NCBI GenBank assembly: GCA_015039465.1
Contig: MU130133.1
Span: 52,932 to 116,931, forward strand
Reading direction: 5' to 3'
Source of the DNA: Phlegmacium glaucopus
Taxonomy: Eukaryota > Basidiomycota > Agaricomycetes > Agaricales > Cortinariaceae
DNA: 64,000 nucleotides
Part shown: positions 7,231-25,287 of the stretch, one piece after another
Layout of the letters: each line of letters starts with the position of its first letter
Numbering within the stretch: position 1 is the stretch's first letter
Position numbers and translations under genes: made by a program
The notes under the pieces: model-generated
Databases searched by the model: none
What the model was told of the DNA's origin: nothing
Seen by the model: the letters and a program-made list of their open reading frames with translations, nothing else

Positions 7231-10200
7231 ATGGCTTCTATGAACTTGAAGAATACTCGCCAGAGGGCCGAGCGCTTTCGAGTCCTGATCATTGGCAACG
7301 CAAACGCGGGTAAAACCACTATTCTAGAGAAAGTATGCCATGCTATGGGCCACAAACCCAAGTTTCTTGATGCAGAGGGAAACGAGGTGCTTCTTTAATA
7401 CTTTTGTCTTTTTGAATTTACGATCGCCCCCTCACCACTGAAACTTGTCCTTTCTTCAATATAGATTGTATCAGAGCTTAAATCGTCCGACGAAGTGTGT
7501 GTTTTTCATTATTTCCAAAAAAAAAACTGTGCCAAAAAAATACTCAATGGGAGTTTTGGATGTTAAACTAATAGCGTGGAGAGCATGACATCGAGCACCA
7601 GATTGTATATCCGACCGCACAAGGCTTTATCTTTCACGACTCCCGTGGGTTCGAAGCCGGCGCTACTGGAGAATTGGTCAAAGTCAAGGAGTTTATCAAC
7701 GAACGGGCGAAGATGACTCTCATGAAAGATCAATTACACGCCATCTGGTACGCCCGCTCGTATACCAGTGAACTTCTTGAAACGCCTCTCTCATGTTCGT
7801 TGTTTAGGTATTGTCTTCCTACAAGCAGCGACAGACCATTGACGGAAGCGGAGATGAGTCTCTTTGAGAGCGACATCGGAAATGGTAAGGCAGACCCAGC
7901 GTTTCCCACCGAACGCCGACCGCTTATGGATTTGCAAGTTCCCGTTATCGCGGTCTTTACAAAAATGGACGCCCTTGACAAGAAGGTATTCAGCGAACAA
8001 TTAAACAAGAAAATACCCCCCCGCGAAGCAAGAAAGAATGTCCCCTCTCTCGCAAGAGCCAAGTTTGAACGGGATTATCTTGCGCCGCTCAAGAAGGTAT
8101 CCCACCAGCCCAAAAATATTGTGGAGTTGCGTGGTAAGTTCTCTTCTTCTAGGTTGATGATAGTCGCTACTTAATGAGCTGCTTACCACTCAGAGATGAA
8201 CAAGCCAGACAAGGACTGCAACGAGCTGGTTATAAAGACTGCGGAAGCTTTGGACAGTCAAGCTCTGGAGCTATTAATTATATCGGCACACCGGAACGAC
8301 GTGGAATTTAGTATTAAGCGCGTTATCAATGAGTGAGTCGTGCTGCTTGTCTAATACGGTCGCTAAATTTGAATGTACCACAAGACAAATCATTCCACTC
8401 GCACAAGGTGAGAGCTCATGTTCACATATCATCGGTCCAACTCAATCATCACTTTGCTTAGCGGTGCTCAAGGGAGCAATGTTTTCACAAAAAGAACAAA
8501 AATCTTTGTTGCGTGGCGCAATGGTTTTATTCCCACACAGTTTGGTGCGCAGAGCTACTAACATTGACTACCCTGTTTGAATGTCAAAATATTTAATAGC
8601 CTGTAAGTGGTGTTAAGTACTTTATATGGTGCTTGATCTTTACTTACTAACTTCCTTTGAGCAGAGTGTATGTCTCTGTAATATTTGTATGGTATTTGAA
8701 GATGGATACTAACACAACTTTACTTCGACTCCCAGTTTGTAAGTCTGTTGGTTTTCATTGCTTACTACTTTCCCACTCATTGCTGTTTCTACTTGTATAC
8801 ATATACAGGTTGTGAGTCTGATTTTCTTTCCTACGAGTGCATCCCCTCATATTCTACATTTTTCATCTCATTGGACAGCGAGTATGTCTCCAAATTATCT
8901 GTGGATAGTAGTGACAATTTACTTATGGCCATTGTTGTTTCCCCAGGAAGTGAGTCCTTGTATATTCATTTTCTGATTGTACTTATAGCAGAAATTATGC
9001 AGATTGTAAGTGTGATACTAATCCTACCATATCATCCTGATATAGAAGGACCTTTTGACAGGATGTAAGCTTCAGTTCTATGTCTACAAGTGCATCTCTA
9101 GTTAACAAAGCTGTATGGAACAGACAGTTAGTGTTCCTGAATCCTGATTCATTCTGCTCAGAATTCTTCCTTCTTTTTCTCTTTTGATAGATGGTGAGTC
9201 CATTCTGATAACTGAGTAGTATTTTTTGTAATTGCTATTAGGATGTGAGTCTATACTCCAAGAATAAAACACCAAGTTTAACATCAAGACTCTCAATTTA
9301 ATTTGGACAGAAAGTAAGCATACCTATATTTTAGAAAGTGGCATCATTTGATTTGATGTGTAGAATGTGATGTTTTGTGATATACTGAACAATGCTTGCA
9401 TTGCTCATTGTAATTTCTGGCCTTTTTTCATGCTTAGGCTGTGAGTGGAAATTGATCATATAATGGCTTTAATTATGCTTATAAATTACTTGTGTTTGGG
9501 CCTTGAATAGATTACTGTGAGTTATACTATAAACCAATTTGGATTGCATATGACTTACTGAGGTTTTCAAGGCTGTAAGGATTTTCTAATTGAAATTTAT
9601 GACTTCTAATATCATCACATTGGAATAATAGATGGTATGTTTTACATGTTTTGTTCTGAATAACATTGAGCTATGATGTTGATATTATTATTATTTTCAC
9701 AACACAGAGAGTAAGATAGATAACTATATTGGCATCTACCCATGTTGATTGGTCTTGATCTACAGGAGGTTTGTTATTCCTACTTAGCTTTGTGTGGGGT
9801 GCAGACTGCTGAAAAATGCAATGATGGGATGGTTTCAGACTGTATGTACCTATAGAAATTTAATGATTGGTTTCTAATATCATTCCCCTCACAGACTGTA
9901 AGTAGCATGGTTCTTGGCATCTTTTTTATATCATAATTATTAATGGTGTGGTCTGTATAGGGAGTGAGTTTCCAGCTTTCCTTCATCTCCTGTTACTTTG
10001 TTCCTCACAGTTGTTTTGTTCTGTTCAAAGCTTGTGAGTTTTTCAGCTTCCCTTTCATTTCTTCTGCAATTTGTGGCTCACATGTGTGTATATACTAATT
10101 ACAGAAAGTGAGTTGTTAGCTTTCCTTCATTTCTTCACATTAAAGCTGACATATTTTTACTCTGCTCACAGGGAGTAAGTTTTCAGTCTGCTTCTTTTCT

Positions 10201-12852
10201 TTGTAGCTTAGCTCATATAATTTTGTGTTATCCACAGAGAGTGAGTTTCAGCTTCCCCTACTTTACATTCTAGCTCACACAACCTCACATATTTGTGTGC
10301 TACTACAGGGAGTGAGTTTTTATGTTCTCTTCATGTCTACTTTACTTTGTAGCTCACATCCATCTCACAGGAAGTGAGTTATCAACTTTATATCATCCTT
10401 CTTTTTATTTTGTGCTCATCTCTGTTTGTGCCTCACAGCAAGTGAGTTTTCAGCTTCCTCTTCACATTGTAGCTTATATTTTTTTGTGCTATTCAACAGA
10501 GAGTGAGTTTTTAGCTTCTTTTCATTTCTCCAGCTCATATCTGTGTGTTTTATTCACAGGGAGTAAAATTCCAGCTTTCCTTCATACCCACTTTACTTTG
10601 TAGCTCACATCAATGGTGTGCTATTCTTAGGAAGTGAGTCATTAGCTTTCTTTTCCTCTCTGCTTTGTCCTCACATATGTTTGTGTTTCACAGGAAGTGA
10701 GTTTTTGGCACTTTTCATCTCCTCTTTATTTTGTAGCTCACCTCTGTATGACTATTCAGTATGTGAGGTTTCTCTTCTCTTCATCTTCTTTTTACTTTGT
10801 AGCTCACAGCTATCATGCCATTCTAAGCTTGTGAGTTTTCAGCTTTCCTTTATTATTTCTCTTCACCTTTTAGCTCATATATTTGTGCACTGTTCACAGA
10901 TTGTAAGTTTTTAGCCTTTTCCTTCATGTCCACTTTATCTTGTAGCTCAGACTTGTTTGTATTTCATAGATTGTAAGTTTTCAGCTTCCCTTCATTTTTT
11001 TTACAGCTTATAATCTTTTGTGCTATTCACAGGAAGTAGGTTTTATACTTCTCTTCATCTTCTTTTTGCTTTATATTTGACATTTTACAGGATGTGTGTT
11101 TCTAGCTTCTTTATATCTCCTCTTTGCTTTATAGCTCACTTCTGTGTGTGCTGTTCACAGCCAGTGAGCCTCCCATCATTTCTTCTTTACTTTGTAGTTG
11201 ACATCTGCATGCATATTCACAGGGAGTAAGTTTCAGTTTTTCTTGATCTCTTATACTTTGTAGCTTATCTGCATGTGCCATTTACAGCTTGTGAGTTTCC
11301 AACTTTCCTTCATCTCCTCATCAATTTTCAATTCACCTCATTTTGTGCCTATTCACAGGATGTAAAATTTCAGCCTTCACCTCCACTTAATTTTTTAGCT
11401 CACATCTTTATGTGTTATTTTCAGGGAGTAAGCTTTCAGCTTGCCTTCATCTCCCTCCCTACTTTCTAGCTTAAATCTGTTTGCATTATTTATAGCTTGT
11501 GAGTTTTTAGCTTGCCTTCTCCTACACTTCACTTTGTGATACATATCTGATCTGTATGCACTATTTACAGAAGGTGTGTTTTTAGCCCCCCCTTCATCTC
11601 TTTTTAATTTTGTAGCTTACATCCTTTTTCACAGGATGTGAGTTTTTAGCTTGCCTTTATCTCTTCAGTTTGTATCTTACATCTATTTGTGCTATTGACA
11701 GCGAGTGAGCTTTTAGCATACCTTCTTCTTGTCTTTATTTTGTAGTCTTACATCTGCCTGTACCATTCACAGCTTGTGAGCTTTTGGCTTCTCTCTTCAC
11801 TTTAAAGCTCACATCTGTGTGCACTATTTTTACAGCAAGTGGGTTTTGAGAGCTTCCTTCATCTTTCCTTCACTTTGCAGCTCACATCTGTCTGTGCTAC
11901 TCATAGCAAGTGAGTATTGAGCTTTCCTTCATCTCTTTTACTTTGTAGCTAATATATTTTGTGCTATCCACAGCGAGTGAGTTTCCAGCTTTCTCCCATC
12001 TCTTACTCACTTTATGGCTCATATCTGGGGTGCTATCAACAGAGAGTGGGTTCAGCTTGCCTTCATTTTGTCCTTACTTTGCATCTTACAATTGTTGATT
12101 ATTCACATATTCACAGCAAGTGAACTTTCAGCTTCCCTTTATTTCCTCTTTACTTTTTAGCTCACATCTATTCACAGCAAGTGAGTTTCTACCATCTCTT
12201 TACTTTGTAAATCACATATATGTGCTATTCACAGCGGGTGAGCTTTTAGCTTTTCATCCCATTCTTACTTGATAGCTCATACATGTGTTCCATCCATTGC
12301 CTCAACATTTTTTTGCCATGCATCTTCTTATGTAATTCATAGTGGACTGTCATTGATGTATGTTTTCCATACTGTTCCAAAGTTCAACATAGATTTGAGC
12401 TTCACCTTTCCAGAATCAACACTTGGAGAAATGTTTTGGGATCCTCTCATACTTCATACCATCAATTGTAAGACACAATTTTTATTTATTTATATGTGCT
12501 GGGATTAATCTACATTTGTATTTAGCTTTCCTCTACAATGCCTCACTGTCATGTGGTCATTATTGGCACTGGTACAGTGTTGATTGTCTTTGTATTCATA
12601 AAATCTCAATGTTTTGCTTCTCTAGTCATTATATTTACTCTGGTTGATTCTTTGTTTGCCCAATTGTCAAGGCAAAATTCAGACAATTACTTGCTTCAAA
12701 AGTTCCAATTAGCCCTAGAAGTCTATGCAAATTCCTCCTCTTCCAAGGACTTTGTGGTGGCAGTAGAAAATGCTTTTTCTCAATCTGATTCCATGCTGGA
12801 TGCAGATGGTGATCTGTTTGGCATAATCATGGCAAATCCTCTTAGTATGTGA
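7231..12852 (+). CDS. P-loop GTPase of a basidiomycete family, interrupted by a micro-exon array
   Basis: Exons 7231-7386, 7465-7494, 7575-7747, 7808-8133, 8194-8332, 8385-8407 and 8462-8544 chain to 310 residues. They carry G1 (GNANAGKT, 22-29), G3 (DSRG, 84-87), G4 (TKMD, 171-174) and G5 (SA, 259-260). Reading ends ...LFPHSL in phase 0 at 8544. The next 3.8 kb is an array of 56 micro-exons (57 codons). After it, 12343-12357, 12414-12467 and 12526-12852 again chain in phase 0 and give a hydrophobic, probably membrane-associated stretch (CHVVIIGTGTVLIVFVFI) and a helical tail ending IIMANPL. From memory, this matches the C-terminus of the same GTPase family. If every micro-exon is used, the product is 498 aa; if all are skipped, 441 aa. 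A TGA at 8334 would end a short form if the intron at 8333 is not spliced. The GTP-binding role is from motifs; the biological role is unknown. Confidence 0.72.
8545..12342 (+). repeat. Tandem array of about 57 mini-introns separated by one-codon micro-exons
   Basis: Each unit is a full intron signal set: donor GTGAGT (variants GTAAGT, GTATGT, GTGAGC), a pyrimidine-rich body, a branch-like CTCAC, CTTAC or CTAAC, and an acceptor mostly CACAG. Exactly 3 nt follow before the next donor. Micro-exons start at 8600, 8665, 8736, 8809, 8879, 8947, 9003, 9062, 9124, 9191, 9242, 9311, 9364, 9438, 9511 (6 nt), 9572, 9632, 9708, 9766, 9839, 9895, 9961, 10031, 10105, 10172, 10238, 10309, 10371, 10439, 10500, 10560, 10631, 10694, 10760, 10828, 10900, 10970, 11033, 11091, 11161, 11223, 11288, 11359, 11425, 11496, 11571, 11635, 11702, 11773, 11836, 11907, 11974, 12043, 12117, 12178 and 12235. 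Inner introns are 48-73 bp. None of the 57 codons is a stop. Weak sites: donors GTGATG (9367), GTAAAA (10563, 11362), GTGAAC (12120); acceptors ending AAG (9571, 10030, 10827). Whether all units are spliced singly is unproven. Confidence 0.8.
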
Positions 12853-13398: not shown

Positions 13399-14389
13399 TT
13401 ATCCTATAAAAAGCTCATCATCCTCCGCTCCAACAAACCGGATCCACTCTTCAGGTGCCTCTCTTGCTCGTAACAGAACTCGAGACGTGTTCCACTGCGA
13501 AAGCAATGCCAGAAATCCTTGAAATGCCACCAGAGCAACATTATTCTTGTTAGTATGGAGAAATTTTTGGAGCTCCTGTTAGATCTAGCCGTTGCTAAGC
13601 CTTCCGCCACCATTTGAATTATCCATAGGCTGAAAGCCATCCAGGATTTGGAGGAAACGGTCGTGAGATGTTGTGATAAGCTTTGTGAGATCTACCCGAG
13701 GACTCCGGAAGTGCTTGTGCGCCACCAGCATATCCGACATGGTCGGACCCATCAATGTATGAAAAACTACAAATTCCGCAAGTCAGCCGAGTATCATTTA
13801 TGCGAAGGCTGAAATCGCACTTTCGTAGGATATTTCGCCAATTTTTTTGCGAGAAAGAAGACGGTAGACACATATGCAGAAGGCCAACTTCTCTGCTGGA
13901 CTCGAACCCGGAGTTGGCAATATACCTGCTGCCCGAGTACTGTCATCGATGGGCGGAAGGTTGTTCAATGCAGTAACAAATTCCACGGGCTCTCTGAGTC
14001 CATCGAAAACAGAGAGGACAGTATCTATCATCGAATAAGCAAACTCCTTGAGTCGCTCCCACCTTTGAAGAGTCGGTTTCGTCATGTAAATTATCGCCTT
14101 CGGGACGCCATAGAATTGCCCTGATGCTATGCTTTCAAGCGGTTCGCTTGTATTTCGGTTCCATTGGAATGTATTCTCAGCGATGGCAGGAGAGGGACCG
14201 GTGCCGGTCAAGTATTCTCCTTGGGTAACACGAAGGATGTCATCCAGATCCTGGTCCTGTACGAGATCGACGTAGGAGGGTCGGGTACCGGTATCGAAGT
14301 GAATGAAAGTACGGTCCTCGATTTCGTAGCATTTGAATCGCCCGATGCTTGTCAAAAGGACAATGCAAGATCCACCTCCTGCCACCTCC
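13399..14389 (-). pseudogene. Family I gene copy A, 3' half only, with stop codons
   Basis: Homologous to the second half of copies B and D: the segment beginning EVAGGGSCIVLLTSIGRFKC, then exon 3 (MSDMLVAHKHFR and onward). The gene is cut at 14389/14390 by the end of the 2.47 kb TIR element at the sequence GATGGTGGA/GGTGG, so its 5' half is not contiguous. Exon 3 also contains in-frame TAG and TAA (around 13,580-13,590), where copies B and D read Gln codons. The 5' half may lie in the assembly gap (16,785-17,757), because copy B starts divergently just beyond it. Function unknown, as for B and D. Confidence 0.8.
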
Positions 14390-16784
14390 ATCAGTAAATT
14401 GGGGAAAACCCTATCTAGCGTTGTGAGCTCCCAAAATGCATTACAGACGGTTGTGGGCGTTATGAACTGGTCACCATATTTTAGGTCCACTCACAATGTC
14501 AGATATTGCTAGATAGTGCCAGGTCCAGTTAATATTTGACCCGTGATATCATCAGTTTGTTGTAGCGATGCTAGATTACTATGAGATTGATATCACCCCT
14601 CTGTATGATGACCGAATGGCTATAATATTCTCGTCAATTGTCTACAAGGTACCAGATCTGAGATTTCCCATGCACCGCTACATTGCTAGATATTGCTAGA
14701 TAATATTTTAGATGTAATGTCATAAGTTTGTCATAATGCAGCATTACTATGGAATTGATATCACCTCTCTGCATGACGACAGAGCAGCGTCAGATTCTCA
14801 GAGATTTGCAATGCATCGCAAACCACATCACTGTCTGCGAGCTAGATATAATATAGTTAGCAGGTTGCAATGCTGTCTCACTTTCTCAAATATTGGAAAT
14901 TTTCATGAATATTCATGTGTGGGTATCACACCGAAAAGAAAGCCAAAATGATGTATTTTCCAGCTACTACATAACTACAGGTTCTAAACTGGCAACGCTG
15001 TGACTGATTGAGCCTACTTCCTGAATAGTAGTGTCGCCCGAAAGCGCCCAGCGAGCCTGAGAAAGAGTGTCAGGACCATAGAAACGTCGATACAAGTGGC
15101 GAGAACATACCAGTATAGCGGATATAGTAATAGCGCGGCGTGATATTGCAAATTTGGTGAATCCGGGCCATTGTCTCGGTCTGGGGTTGAAGTAACTCGC
15201 CATTCATATACCTTCTGGCCAAGGGTCCACGGAATGCGGACGACATAGATCTGAGCAAGAAATCAACTCCTAAAAAGCAAAGCAAGGTATAAATAAAAGA
15301 TGAAGTACTCACCGCGCCAATCCTTCTGAAGGATAGGAATACCGGCGCTCGAGTACAGTATAGTCTCGCTCACTCATCCAACTTCTCGAAATTTGTTAAT
15401 ATCTGTGAACAGGTCACAAGTGAGTGCGATGCTAAAGTATGAGAATTGAACTGACCTGTTGTTGAAGCCATCTCTGACACAGGGGAAGAAATGACGCTTG
15501 TTGTAGTTTTTCGCAGGTGACAAGCTCTGAGAAAAGGGTGCTGATGAGCGTGGTTTTTCCCAACCCAGATTCACCTTGAGAAGCGATTCAACAACATAAT
15601 TTCATCTCCAAATGAATGGGGAACGCACCGACAACCATAATGACAAAGTGCCCACTGCGTTTGGCAACAATTTCTCGTAATGTAAAGAAGTTGGCAGGCT
15701 GGAATACTAATCGCGTGAGTGTGGTGGTGGTGGCATCATTTCGCGCGAGTAGAATTAGTGGGGGTTGATAGAAGAAATTCCTGTTTATATATCTCAGGCT
15801 TGTGGGGCCACCCCGCCTTCTCACCCACCAAACAACAACAAAATGGCGCGATAGTGGGGCTGGCGTATAACGACTGCTCCACACCCAAGCTTGGCGACCA
15901 ATGCTGTGTCGTCCGAATGGGATTAACATTTTCATTCTTAGAACGTGTTTGTTGATAAATGCAGCCGCTCGCACTTCTGCTGAATCATCCTTGATGCTGC
16001 ATCACCGGTGCGTAGTAACCTGCACACATGATTTACTGTCGTTGAAATTGGTCGTATTGGGCGTAGAAACCTCCGTTAGTAATGCAGTCGGGACCTGGAC
16101 ACCAGCCAACGCCCAGGACGAGTGGTCTCCTACGTGCCAATTCTTAGCCGGTTTTGTAACCGTTCCCGACAAGGCATATCAGATGCTTGCATCACTTCCG
16201 TTGAAGATGGCCTGAAGAAGGCTGAACTAATTGGTTGGCCAGTGATGATTAAGGCAAGCGAGGGCGGAGGAGGGAAAGGAATTAGGAAGGTAGAAGACCC
16301 GAATTTTCCAGCTGAATTAGCAGTTATGAGACTCGTTTGGAATAGAATCTGATTTGTTTGCGAGCTTATATCTGCTCTATGTCTGGCTTAGAAACCTGTG
16401 CTGGGATTGTAATGAGGGATGAACCATCCAGCATCTGATAATAATACTGTGATTCCACTATGAGCCTTGCAGCCACTGCACAATACAGTTTTGATACAGT
16501 TACAATATTCTTGCCATATTGTAATGGAATATAATTTGTTTACAAGCTTATATCTGCCTTATTTCTGGCTTACAATCCTGTGCTGGGATTGTAATGAGGG
16601 ATGAACCATCCAGTCTCTGATAATAATACTATGATTCCACTGCGAACCTTGCAGCCACTGCACAGTACAGTTACAATATCCTTGCCATATATTAATTGGT
16701 TCACATTATAGAAGCAATACTTTATCCAGTTGACAATACCACATTAGTCTTGCAGCATGCATCTAACAGGTTACAAGCTGTTGT
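14390..16784 (-). mobile_element. TIR element with captured gene fragments, left copy, truncated by gap
   Basis: Appears identical, as an inverted copy, to about 22,607-25,012: encoded fragments match residue for residue and sampled nucleotide stretches agree. Read on the minus strand it ends TTTACTGAT directly against family I copy A. Its other end is lost in the gap beginning at 16,785. It contains the same acetyl-CoA carboxylase fragment (plus strand, about 16,130-16,330) and septin fragment (minus strand, about 15,720-15,530), and the same pairs of about 180 bp tandem repeats near both ends. See the right copy for details. Confidence 0.85.
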
Positions 16785-17757
16785 NNNNNNNNNNNNNNNN
16801 NNNNNNNNNNNNNNNNNNNNNNNNNNNNNNNNNNNNNNNNNNNNNNNNNNNNNNNNNNNNNNNNNNNNNNNNNNNNNNNNNNNNNNNNNNNNNNNNNNNN
16901 NNNNNNNNNNNNNNNNNNNNNNNNNNNNNNNNNNNNNNNNNNNNNNNNNNNNNNNNNNNNNNNNNNNNNNNNNNNNNNNNNNNNNNNNNNNNNNNNNNNN
17001 NNNNNNNNNNNNNNNNNNNNNNNNNNNNNNNNNNNNNNNNNNNNNNNNNNNNNNNNNNNNNNNNNNNNNNNNNNNNNNNNNNNNNNNNNNNNNNNNNNNN
17101 NNNNNNNNNNNNNNNNNNNNNNNNNNNNNNNNNNNNNNNNNNNNNNNNNNNNNNNNNNNNNNNNNNNNNNNNNNNNNNNNNNNNNNNNNNNNNNNNNNNN
17201 NNNNNNNNNNNNNNNNNNNNNNNNNNNNNNNNNNNNNNNNNNNNNNNNNNNNNNNNNNNNNNNNNNNNNNNNNNNNNNNNNNNNNNNNNNNNNNNNNNNN
17301 NNNNNNNNNNNNNNNNNNNNNNNNNNNNNNNNNNNNNNNNNNNNNNNNNNNNNNNNNNNNNNNNNNNNNNNNNNNNNNNNNNNNNNNNNNNNNNNNNNNN
17401 NNNNNNNNNNNNNNNNNNNNNNNNNNNNNNNNNNNNNNNNNNNNNNNNNNNNNNNNNNNNNNNNNNNNNNNNNNNNNNNNNNNNNNNNNNNNNNNNNNNN
17501 NNNNNNNNNNNNNNNNNNNNNNNNNNNNNNNNNNNNNNNNNNNNNNNNNNNNNNNNNNNNNNNNNNNNNNNNNNNNNNNNNNNNNNNNNNNNNNNNNNNN
17601 NNNNNNNNNNNNNNNNNNNNNNNNNNNNNNNNNNNNNNNNNNNNNNNNNNNNNNNNNNNNNNNNNNNNNNNNNNNNNNNNNNNNNNNNNNNNNNNNNNNN
17701 NNNNNNNNNNNNNNNNNNNNNNNNNNNNNNNNNNNNNNNNNNNNNNNNNNNNNNNNN
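16785..17757. other. Assembly gap (Ns)
   Basis: 973 undetermined bases. The flanks are the TIR element (left) and the shared promoter region of family I copy B (right). Comparison with 21,882-22,606 suggests the gap hides the start of the element, the 5' half of copy A in minus orientation and a divergent promoter; inference only. Confidence 0.95.
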
Positions 17758-22569: not shown

Positions 22570-25012
22570 TTTAGCAATATGACGTTTACGAACCCATTAC
22601 AATATTATATTACCTCAACAACAGCTTGTAACCTGTTAGATGCATGCTGCAAGACTAATGTGGTATTGTCAACTGGATAAAGTATTGCTTCTATAATGTG
22701 AACCAATTAATATATGGCAAGGATATTGTAACTGTACTGTGCAGTGGCTGCAAGGTTCGCAGTGGAATCATAGTATTATTATCAGAGACTGGATGGTTCA
22801 TCCCTCATTACAATCCCAGCACAGGATTGTAAGCCAGAAATAAGGCAGATATAAGCTTGTAAACAAATTATATTCCATTACAATATGGCAAGAATATTGT
22901 AACTGTATCAAAACTGTATTGTGCAGTGGCTGCAAGGCTCATAGTGGAATCACAGTATTATTATCAGATGCTGGATGGTTCATCCCTCATTACAATCCCA
23001 GCACAGGTTTCTAAGCCAGACATAGAGCAGATATAAGCTCGCAAACAAATCAGATTCTATTCCAAACGAGTCTCATAACTGCTAATTCAGCTGGAAAATT
23101 CGGGTCTTCTACCTTCCTAATTCCTTTCCCTCCTCCGCCCTCGCTTGCCTTAATCATCACTGGCCAACCAATTAGTTCAGCCTTCTTCAGGCCATCTTCA
23201 ACGGAAGTGATGCAAGCATCTGATATGCCTTGTCGGGAACGGTTACAAAACCGGCTAAGAATTGGCACGTAGGAGACCACTCGTCCTGGGCGTTGGCTGG
23301 TGTCCAGGTCCCGACTGCATTACTAACGGAGGTTTCTACGCCCAATACGACCAATTTCAACGACAGTAAATCATGTGTGCAGGTTACTACGCACCGGTGA
23401 TGCAGCATCAAGGATGATTCAGCAGAAGTGCGAGCGGCTGCATTTATCAACAAACACGTTCTAAGAATGAAAATGTTAATCCCATTCGGACGACACAGCA
23501 TTGGTCGCCAAGCTTGGGTGTGGAGCAGTCGTTATACGCCAGCCCCACTATCGCGCCATTTTGTTGTTGTTTGGTGGGTGAGAAGGCGGGGTGGCCCCAC
23601 AAGCCTGAGATATATAAACAGGAATTTCTTCTATCAACCCCCACTAATTCTACTCGCGCGAAATGATGCCACCACCACCACACTCACGCGATTAGTATTC
23701 CAGCCTGCCAACTTCTTTACATTACGAGAAATTGTTGCCAAACGCAGTGGGCACTTTGTCATTATGGTTGTCGGTGCGTTCCCCATTCATTTGGAGATGA
23801 AATTATGTTGTTGAATCGCTTCTCAAGGTGAATCTGGGTTGGGAAAAACCACGCTCATCAGCACCCTTTTCTCAGAGCTTGTCACCTGCGAAAAACTACA
23901 ACAAGCGTCATTTCTTCCCCTGTGTCAGAGATGGCTTCAACAACAGGTCAGTTCAATTCTCATACTTTAGCATCGCACTCACTTGTGACCTGTTCACAGA
24001 TATTAACAAATTTCGAGAAGTTGGATGAGTGAGCGAGACTATACTGTACTCGAGCGCCGGTATTCCTATCCTTCAGAAGGATTGGCGCGGTGAGTACTTC
24101 ATCTTTTATTTATACCTTGCTTTGCTTTTTAGGAGTTGATTTCTTGCTCAGATCTATGTCGTCCGCATTCCGTGGACCCTTGGCCAGAAGGTATATGAAT
24201 GGCGAGTTACTTCAACCCCAGACCGAGACAATGGCCCGGATTCACCAAATTTGCAATATCACGCCGCGCTATTACTATATCCGCTATACTGGTATGTTCT
24301 CGCCACTTGTATCGACGTTTCTATGGTCCTGACACTCTTTCTCAGGCTCGCTGGGCGCTTTCGGGCGACACTACTATTCAGGAAGTAGGCTCAATCAGTC
24401 ACAGCGTTGCCAGTTTAGAACCTGTAGTTATGTAGTAGCTGGAAAATACATCATTTTGGCTTTCTTTTCGGTGTGATACCCACACATGAATATTCATGAA
24501 AATTTCCAATATTTGAGAAAGTGAGACAGCATTGCAACCTGCTAACTATATTATATCTAGCTCGCAGACAGTGATGTGGTTTGCGATGCATTGCAAATCT
24601 CTGAGAATCTGACGCTGCTCTGTCGTCATGCAGAGAGGTGATATCAATTCCATAGTAATGCTGCATTATGACAAACTTATGACATTACATCTAAAATATT
24701 ATCTAGCAATATCTAGCAATGTAGCGGTGCATGGGAAATCTCAGATCTGGTACCTTGTAGACAATTGACGAGAATATTATAGCCATTCGGTCATCATACA
24801 GAGGGGTGATATCAATCTCATAGTAATCTAGCATCGCTACAACAAACTGATGATATCACGGGTCAAATATTAACTGGACCTGGCACTATCTAGCAATATC
24901 TGACATTGTGAGTGGACCTAAAATATGGTGACCAGTTCATAACGCCCACAACCGTCTGTAATGCATTTTGGGAGCTCACAACGCTAGATAGGGTTTTCCC
25001 CAATTTACTGAT
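22546..25012 (+). mobile_element. 2.47 kb TIR element carrying acetyl-CoA carboxylase and septin gene fragments
   Basis: Imperfect terminal inverted repeats: ATCAGGAAGTTAGGGAAA at the left, and the complement of the right end reads ATCAGTAAATTGGGGAAA. Pairs of tandem repeats of about 175-180 bp lie inside each end (22,690-23,045 and 24,660-24,900). No transposase is visible, so it would depend on one elsewhere. Host-gene pieces: (1) minus strand 23,280-23,050 encodes [20 protein letters not shown], the ATP-grasp biotin-carboxylase core of acetyl-CoA carboxylase. (2) Plus strand 23,730-23,905 encodes IVAKRSGHFVIMVVG, an intron (GTGCGT donor, TCAAG acceptor), then GESGLGKTTLISTLF, the septin P-loop. 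(3) About 24,050-24,400 holds further intron-split fragments I cannot name. Retained introns point to DNA-level capture. The superfamily is not determined; a 3 bp GGA duplication is possible. Confidence 0.8.
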
Positions 25013-25287
25013 GGAAGCAGAAATATCTGCGACAACGATATATTTTTAGCAGAATATCGCAGAAAAAAATCTGCATTGTTGGACAAAATCTGCAGTTGGC
25101 TGTGTTTGTCTGTTGGGCTCCGATATTCACAGAAAATCACAGAAAATCACATGTCCGAGTTTCACTGGGCCTGAAGGCTCACATTCGTTGTCAAACATAG
25201 TCCTGTTTTTACCGCGCCCCCGGACCCAGGCTTGTCATGACCCGGGTCTGACGAGGTCAGACCCTGACCCGTCGTCAAGTGACTTGA
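25013..25287. other. Unassigned sequence right of the TIR element
   Basis: The expected continuation of the family I gene (GGTGGCAGG) is absent here. Instead there are repeats of a GCAGAAATATC/TCGCAGAAA-type word (25,016-25,150), suggesting another small element or a rearrangement breakpoint. Confidence 0.45.

Follow-up and report, generated by a model that had tools for sequence, protein, structure and literature searches.

Tandem arrays of predicted single-codon exons in GTPase genes of the mushroom Phlegmacium glaucopus

Introduction

The primary paper on the microexons of the nank genes of the truffle Tuber melanosporum is said, in papers that cite it, to be that of Iotti et al. 2012. The accessible parts of three papers describe the NACHT-ankyrin genes of this fungus as carrying "tens of codon-sized microexons" (PMC3689799) and "3-bp long microexons" (PMC4986451, PMC10197012), and present these exons as a means of gene diversification (PMC3689799, PMC4986451, PMC10197012), which reviewers tie to a variable segment. 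Micro-exon genes (MEGs) of schistosomes also string together very short exons, most with lengths divisible by three. Their exons of 6-81 bp, mostly 15, and introns of up to 5 kb, as given in the available text of PMC10526429, differ from the 3-nt exons and the introns of about 50-75 nt of the Phlegmacium glaucopus arrays described below. Microexons of 1-3 nt are known from plants, flies and Fusarium, including 1-nt exons in Fusarium P450 genes (PMC12940212, in part) and in plants (PMC8831610, in part); these are isolated, yet they show that spliceosomes can use such exons. Near-identical spliceosomal introns likewise occur in a fungus as introner-like elements, which are scattered over genes according to the accessible part of PMC4457414, whereas the unit pattern of the present array was found nowhere outside its own array (all 11 genome matches to one stringent pattern with at most one mismatch lay inside it). 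Duplication of intron-exon structure that gives rise to new introns (PMC4974935, in the part available) shares the principle, but consists of single events, whereas P. glaucopus shows dozens of units with one codon each.

Here, we analyze a window of 64,000 nt from contig C60 of the Phlegmacium (Cortinarius) glaucopus genome (60.5 Mb, 259 contigs). As in the Tuber nank (NLR) genes, so far as the citing papers describe them, the setting is an ectomycorrhizal fungus with an expanded gene family and tens of 3-bp microexons. However, Tuber is an ascomycete and its genes encode a NACHT domain, whereas P. glaucopus is a basidiomycete and the family is one of small GTPases with no NACHT match, with calculated arrays of up to 99 micro-exons and near-identical tandem introns, known here from DNA. 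The initial annotation of this locus had known of no gene with dozens of 3-nt exons in a row, to which the Tuber genes, as reported in those excerpts, are a counter-example. A literature search, with most subscription journals outside its reach, turned up nothing on arrays of single-codon exons in mushrooms or GTPases. The kind of structure is known from Tuber; what is new here is the basidiomycete host, another protein family, the larger scale and the longer arrays.

The host gene and its array

The public model of the window gene is its best protein match, P0001, which is named "era-like GTP-binding protein" and comes from Phlegmacium glaucopus. A second relative, P0006, is a 449-residue protein from another fungus, encoded on an 1800-base JGI contig. 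The features of the gene are as follows.

7231..8332, forward strand: GTPase domain in six exons, with the P-loop GNANAGKT (P0001 match; exon ends from the sequence)
8385..8407, forward strand: 23-nt exon, QIIPLAQ, with a split codon at each end (P0001 and P0006)
8462..8544, forward strand: final long exon before the array, ending ...LFPHSL in phase 0, donor GTGCGC (sequence, P0001 and P0006)
8545..12342, forward strand: array in which 56 micro-exons separate 57 introns; 171 of its 3798 nt are coding
8600..9768, forward strand: first 19 micro-exons, PSFVREIDTMDKNAITAMRE, segment conserved against P0006
9511..9516, forward strand: sole 6-nt micro-exon, ATTACT (I-T), facing V-N of P0006
9839..12237, forward strand: last 37 micro-exons, TTGLKGRGEQRGEEYLIIEDPGLDGLKDRLQQRRQQR, without clear counterpart in P0006
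12343..12357, forward strand: putative exon directly following the array, WTVID, phase 0 (read from the sequence; no homologue match)
12414..12852, forward strand: predicted C-terminal exons, about 12414-12467 and then more to about 12852

The six GTPase exons span about 7231-7386, 7465-7494, 7575-7747, 7808-7884, 7939-8133 and 8194-8332. The initial annotation was right to call the gene a GTPase, as indicated by the GTP-binding names of its matches, the P-loop and a fold predicted with good confidence that matches solved G domains; the P-loop and the predicted fold together leave little doubt about this identity. At curated cut-offs, Pfam returned no family for the window GTPase (the best, G-alpha, reached 27.3 of 48.8 bits, and GTP_EFTU 23.8 of 26.5 bits) and no NACHT or ankyrin match for it or for P0006. 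Reading a function from structure was dropped: an AlphaFold2 model of P0006 had a mean pLDDT of 65, falling under 50 across residues 310-449, the segment of interest, and its PDB matches were confined to the G domain and had low TM-scores (septin 9, G-alpha, Irga6 and a bacterial dynamin).

A TGA at 8334 had been considered as a possible end of the transcript. It lies just within an intron whose donor, GTGAGT, is at 8333, and both P0001 and P0006 read on beyond it. P0001 tracks the GTPase exons up to FPHSL at 8544, adds 11 residues of the first array intron and ends. Downstream of the array, the sequence and a loosely fitting global alignment with P0006 suggest that the predicted C-terminal exons would encode a run of hydrophobic residues as well as ...KFQLALEVYANSSSSKDFVVAVENAFS...

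With its ends fixed at 8544 and 12343, a splice-chain calculation recovered the 57 tandem introns first noted at 8545..12342 on the forward strand, with the same exact spacing (55 micro-exons of 3 nt and one of 6 nt) and with phase 0 at both borders. The micro-exons encode 57 codons; the calculation permitted exons of 3, 6 or 9 nt only, so a preference for multiples of three is not demonstrable from the chain alone. The introns are 48-105 nt long, and all 57 have GT-AG ends (the calculation required AG and preferred GT), with CAG at 41 acceptors, TAG at 13 and AAG at 3. A few donors are weak (GTGATG, GTTTGT, GTTAGT), and codon 9 is ambiguous between ACA at 9124 and TTA at 9128. A loose YTNAY branch-point box is present in 55 of the 57 introns and the stricter CTRAY in 11 (raw counts). 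The introns around the first 19 micro-exons are mutually diverged, and those from about 10,000 onward are mutually similar. On both strands of the 64-kb window, YAGNNNGTRAG occurs at 43 sites against 6.2 expected and a maximum of 14 in 100 shuffles; 37 of the 43 are on the forward strand within the array.

Other repeats occur in the window downstream of the gene. Inverted 2,398-bp copies at 14387-16784 and 22618-25015 are 100% identical and adjoin an N gap at 16785-17757, and represent either a recent duplication or an assembly error. More inverted or direct copies of 86-97% identity are located between 13186 and 35375. Two further inverted repeats, 25288-25703/26684-27098 (416 bp, 98.6%) and 38619-39193/39372-39945 (575 bp, 97.4%), are perhaps transposon ends.

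Comparison with relatives

When the array was compared with related proteins, its codons matched their segment in order. After a shared FPH-L motif, P0006 continues PSFDKLINDMDKNAVNAMRE; the first 20 residues encoded by the window micro-exons match it without gaps at 13 of 20 positions. The BLOSUM score of this match is 65, a value that 20,000 permutations of the window codons never approached (highest 24), and the unconstrained local score is 69, compared with at most 43 in 2,000 shuffles. Three other proteins, P0015, P0024 and P0013, are identical at 10, 10 and 8 of the 20 positions, each exceeding its own permuted maximum. The P0006 contig is probably a cDNA, since it holds 449 codons without an intron on 1800 bases.

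The counterpart in P0006 is limited to the first 20-25 of the 57 window residues; the repeat-rich 3' two thirds of the window array gave no alignment to P0006 after about 25 residues. A search with P0006 returned only three other proteins, of which P0015 alone extends well into the segment. In an alignment of 16 proteins, at least 20 residues of the segment after FPHML are present in four of the eight proteins from JGI short contigs and in none of the eight genome-derived NCBI models, which end within a few dozen residues of FPHML. Most likely, the JGI contigs represent cDNA, and gene finders miss the array.

Arrays elsewhere in the genome

The initial annotation described a single array. That array is real, but it is one of about 45 in the genome. 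We searched for two neighboring AG-NNN-GTRAG sites 36-66 nt apart using four patterns, which did not include TCAG and other starts, and obtained 1,142, 129, 145 and 331 pairs (1,747 in total), compared with 52, 28, 4 and 43 (127 in total) for the reversed control patterns. At least 45 array clusters were identified, six of them known from a single listed pair; about 105 of the 1,142 places of the first pattern were among the matches listed, and the arrays after C11 rest on the other three patterns. Single pairs at C46:132669, C73:20181 and C134:193306, which resemble chance or inverted repeats, were left out of this count.

For 35 of the 45 listed clusters, an exon of this GTPase is found no more than 4 kb upstream in the same orientation, where about 0.003 per array would be expected. 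Exons of the window GTPase had 159 matches in the genome, and 50 of the 85 GTPase places typed are without a listed downstream array, so the GTPase family does not share the array throughout. By splice-chain calculation, there are 56 micro-exons in the window and 34-99 in five paralogues, with up to 99 single-codon micro-exons in a row. Six paralogue arrays close with comparable codons followed by homologous long exons. In C127, one open protein of 496 residues runs from seven GTPase exons through 76 micro-exons, 75 of them 3 nt long and one 9 nt, into later exons; as read by eye, one intron behind this array must be GC-AG. The C-terminal half of this protein had no relative among 1,033 candidates in a search of 5.8 billion predicted proteins.

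The intron units fall by eye into about seven families, of about 65 bp in the window and 56, 59, 67, 70, 73 and 76 bp elsewhere. In the arrays of C17, C41, C67 and C93, the unit family is found in another, non-GTPase gene. Upstream of the C67 and C41 arrays is a different protein, which starts MDRLL... and runs into 67-bp units (C67:12800-15700 and C41:115100-117600), and for which Pfam gave no confident match. Some arrays are irregular. The paralogue at C8:329899 (C8:329500-336000) has a TAG in its array and is probably a pseudogene, because its GTPase also carries in-frame stops relative to C127. One exon of the C7 array reads as 4 nt. At C9:280000-287000, foreign-looking sequence of about 1 kb breaks up the array.

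The triplets were pooled over 14 array loci from YAG-NNN-GTRNG sites that had a neighbor of the same kind at a distance of 40-135 nt, with C15, C52 and C62 contributing one 3-kb locus each. Only two of 653 triplets are stops (two TAG, no TAA, no TGA), one in the C8:329899 paralogue and the other a codon in C15. The number expected is 45 if positions are independent, 24 under a first-order Markov model and 30 if positions 1 and 3 are kept together, and the fewest stops in 5,000 permutations of the triplets was 28. Avoidance of an extra AG near the acceptor was rejected as the cause, as GAG is among the commonest triplets (43) and TAG occurs only twice. T-first, A-ending triplets are scarce in general (TTA 7, TCA 2, TAA 0, TGA 0), which means that splicing may account for some of the depletion; the Markov and position-1-3 controls absorb some of this constraint. 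The last base is almost never C (1 of 653 triplets); the preferred bases are A or T in the window and C149, T in C7, and G, T or A in the 56-bp family.

Spacing was counted separately on the GTRAG donors of the 14 loci, the window included. The nearest upstream YAG is exactly 3 nt away in 584 of 666; of the other 82, 42 have no YAG within 25 nt and 40 have one at another distance. A YGA control for this count was left unused because it was spoiled by TGA within the repeat. Intron lengths vary within arrays and micro-exon lengths very rarely do. Exons of arbitrary length were set aside on the strength of this spacing, and a non-coding satellite repeat on that of the spacing, the missing stops and the conserved residues.

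Probable serial splicing of the arrays

The initial annotation left a choice between serial splicing and removal of the array as one unit or a few. Ordered conserved residues, the near absence of stops and the kept 3-nt spacing favor the former: conserved codon order and missing stops make it very probable that the array is translated codon by codon and not removed whole. From DNA and protein sequences, we consider it highly probable that the spliceosome removes ordinary GT-AG introns serially and that single codons join in frame to yield a 57-residue segment of the GTPase. By calculation, each micro-exon is a whole phase-0 codon, so full, partial or skipped joining would stay in frame. Short fungal introns are usually recognized across the intron, and the array introns of 48-105 nt would be recognized in the same way. 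As two neighboring introns cannot both be bound across 3 nt, they would presumably be taken out in turn; in plants, the accessible part of a study based on microexon reads proposes that the introns on either side of a microexon are taken out successively (PMC8831610). The outcome of these steps appears to be visible in relatives, where the protein segment is conserved and occurs in what is probably spliced sequence.

A different role for the same introns would be alternative splicing, with in-frame subsets of codons chosen per mRNA so that one gene yields many proteins. We regard this as possible, although we lean against it as the chief function. Any subset of the micro-exons would stay in frame since all are in phase 0, and the 3-bp microexons of Tuber are described as alternatively spliced in the available portions of PMC3689799, PMC4986451 and PMC10197012. 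The tails of JGI proteins resemble read-through at different points: P0033 ends FPHML-PS-VSVLA and P0015 ends ...ESV-VSYL, V-S being what a GTNAGN donor encodes, and the P0033 tail looks like a retained intron after two joined codons. However, these tails are known as protein only and may reflect unfinished splicing rather than regulated choice, and the conservation of the first 20 residues arguably means that all of them are usually kept.

Evolution of the arrays

Under serial splicing, arrays would gain and lose members by tandem duplication of intron-plus-codon units or blocks of units, adding or removing whole residues without a frameshift. The codons would then change fast under selection for new residues, which would leave a variable segment behind a constant G domain. 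Introns resemble each other within an array, with a mean difference of 0.6% in C7, about 9% in C15 and C52 and about 20% in most others, but the codons do not. C3 contains runs of identical intron-plus-GGA units, which indicates that whole units were copied. In C220, the block SGLLGGSSE occurs twice, and its in-register introns are 85.5% identical versus an average of 77.4%. Codon order is autocorrelated above chance in C3 (p 0.001), C220 (p 0.02) and C60 (p 0.029), and not above chance in C8, C127 and C9 (uncorrected per-array p values, six arrays tested).

Alternatively, the protein may be older than its introns, with near-identical introns inserted between existing codons, as introner-like elements or by reverse splicing, and not copied together with a codon. 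A comparison of equally long introns gave 139 unit pairs whose introns are at least 98% identical; 92 of them are from C7, and the pairs are not independent of each other. In these pairs, codon positions 1, 2 and 3 differ in 36%, 52% and 1.4%, the introns differ at 0.4% per site, the amino acid differs in 88 of 139 pairs, and in none is the difference purely silent. The differences at positions 1 and 2 between such similar introns count in favor of insertion, and codon identity barely tracks intron identity, the same codon being found in 9% of pairs at 75-85% intron identity and in 19% at 90-95%. The third position fits insertion poorly: it differs in only 1.4% of the pairs, and in the C7 array (C7:70466-73545, reverse strand), where at least 12 identical 67-nt introns separate different codons, all 23 codons end in T, as if copied along. 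Insertion is further opposed by the intron-plus-codon runs of C3, by codon choice that is array-specific across the 14 loci, and by the confinement of the window unit pattern to its own array (11/11 matches), and we consider it unlikely. We favor a history in which units were duplicated and the copies then came under strong selection for new residues. A link from unit duplication to fast codon change is tentative, given that the identical introns of C7 stand beside different codons.

It is very improbable that the array is excised as a single large intron, or as a few, and that the triplets never reach the mRNA: the donor at 8545 and the acceptor at 12342 would also join in frame, and public gene models skip the array by ending at it, but a conserved codon order, missing stops and kept 3-nt spacing would be pointless in triplets that are not translated. 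Decayed repeat DNA in a pseudogene is likewise very improbable, for although some paralogues are broken (C8:329899 and the codon TAG in C15), the window GTPase frame is open, none of its 57 array codons is a stop and the codons are conserved.

Conclusions

The sequences allow a broader and tentative interpretation, to which we give serious weight while holding it somewhat doubtful: the mushroom may make a hypervariable protein segment residue by residue, from about 1,600 single-codon exons in about 45 arrays that lie behind a GTPase family and one or more unrelated families, as a codon-level generator of diversity that possibly serves recognition. Near-identical phase-0 introns would then act as frame-safe codon cassettes to be added, lost, shuffled or skipped singly, with the codons driven to change as the introns stay the same. 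It is possible that the array is a variability device, and the parallel with the truffle NLR genes suggests that the same trick may have arisen in two distant fungal groups.

If serial splicing is correct, a single message would carry up to a hundred consecutive 3-nt exons through the spliceosome, which would test the limits of intron definition and the order in which neighboring introns are removed. An entire protein segment would have been hidden from gene finders. The arrays would also let neighboring introns and codons be followed in nature as they evolve at unequal rates, and would give this fungus a frame-safe route to single-residue protein change.
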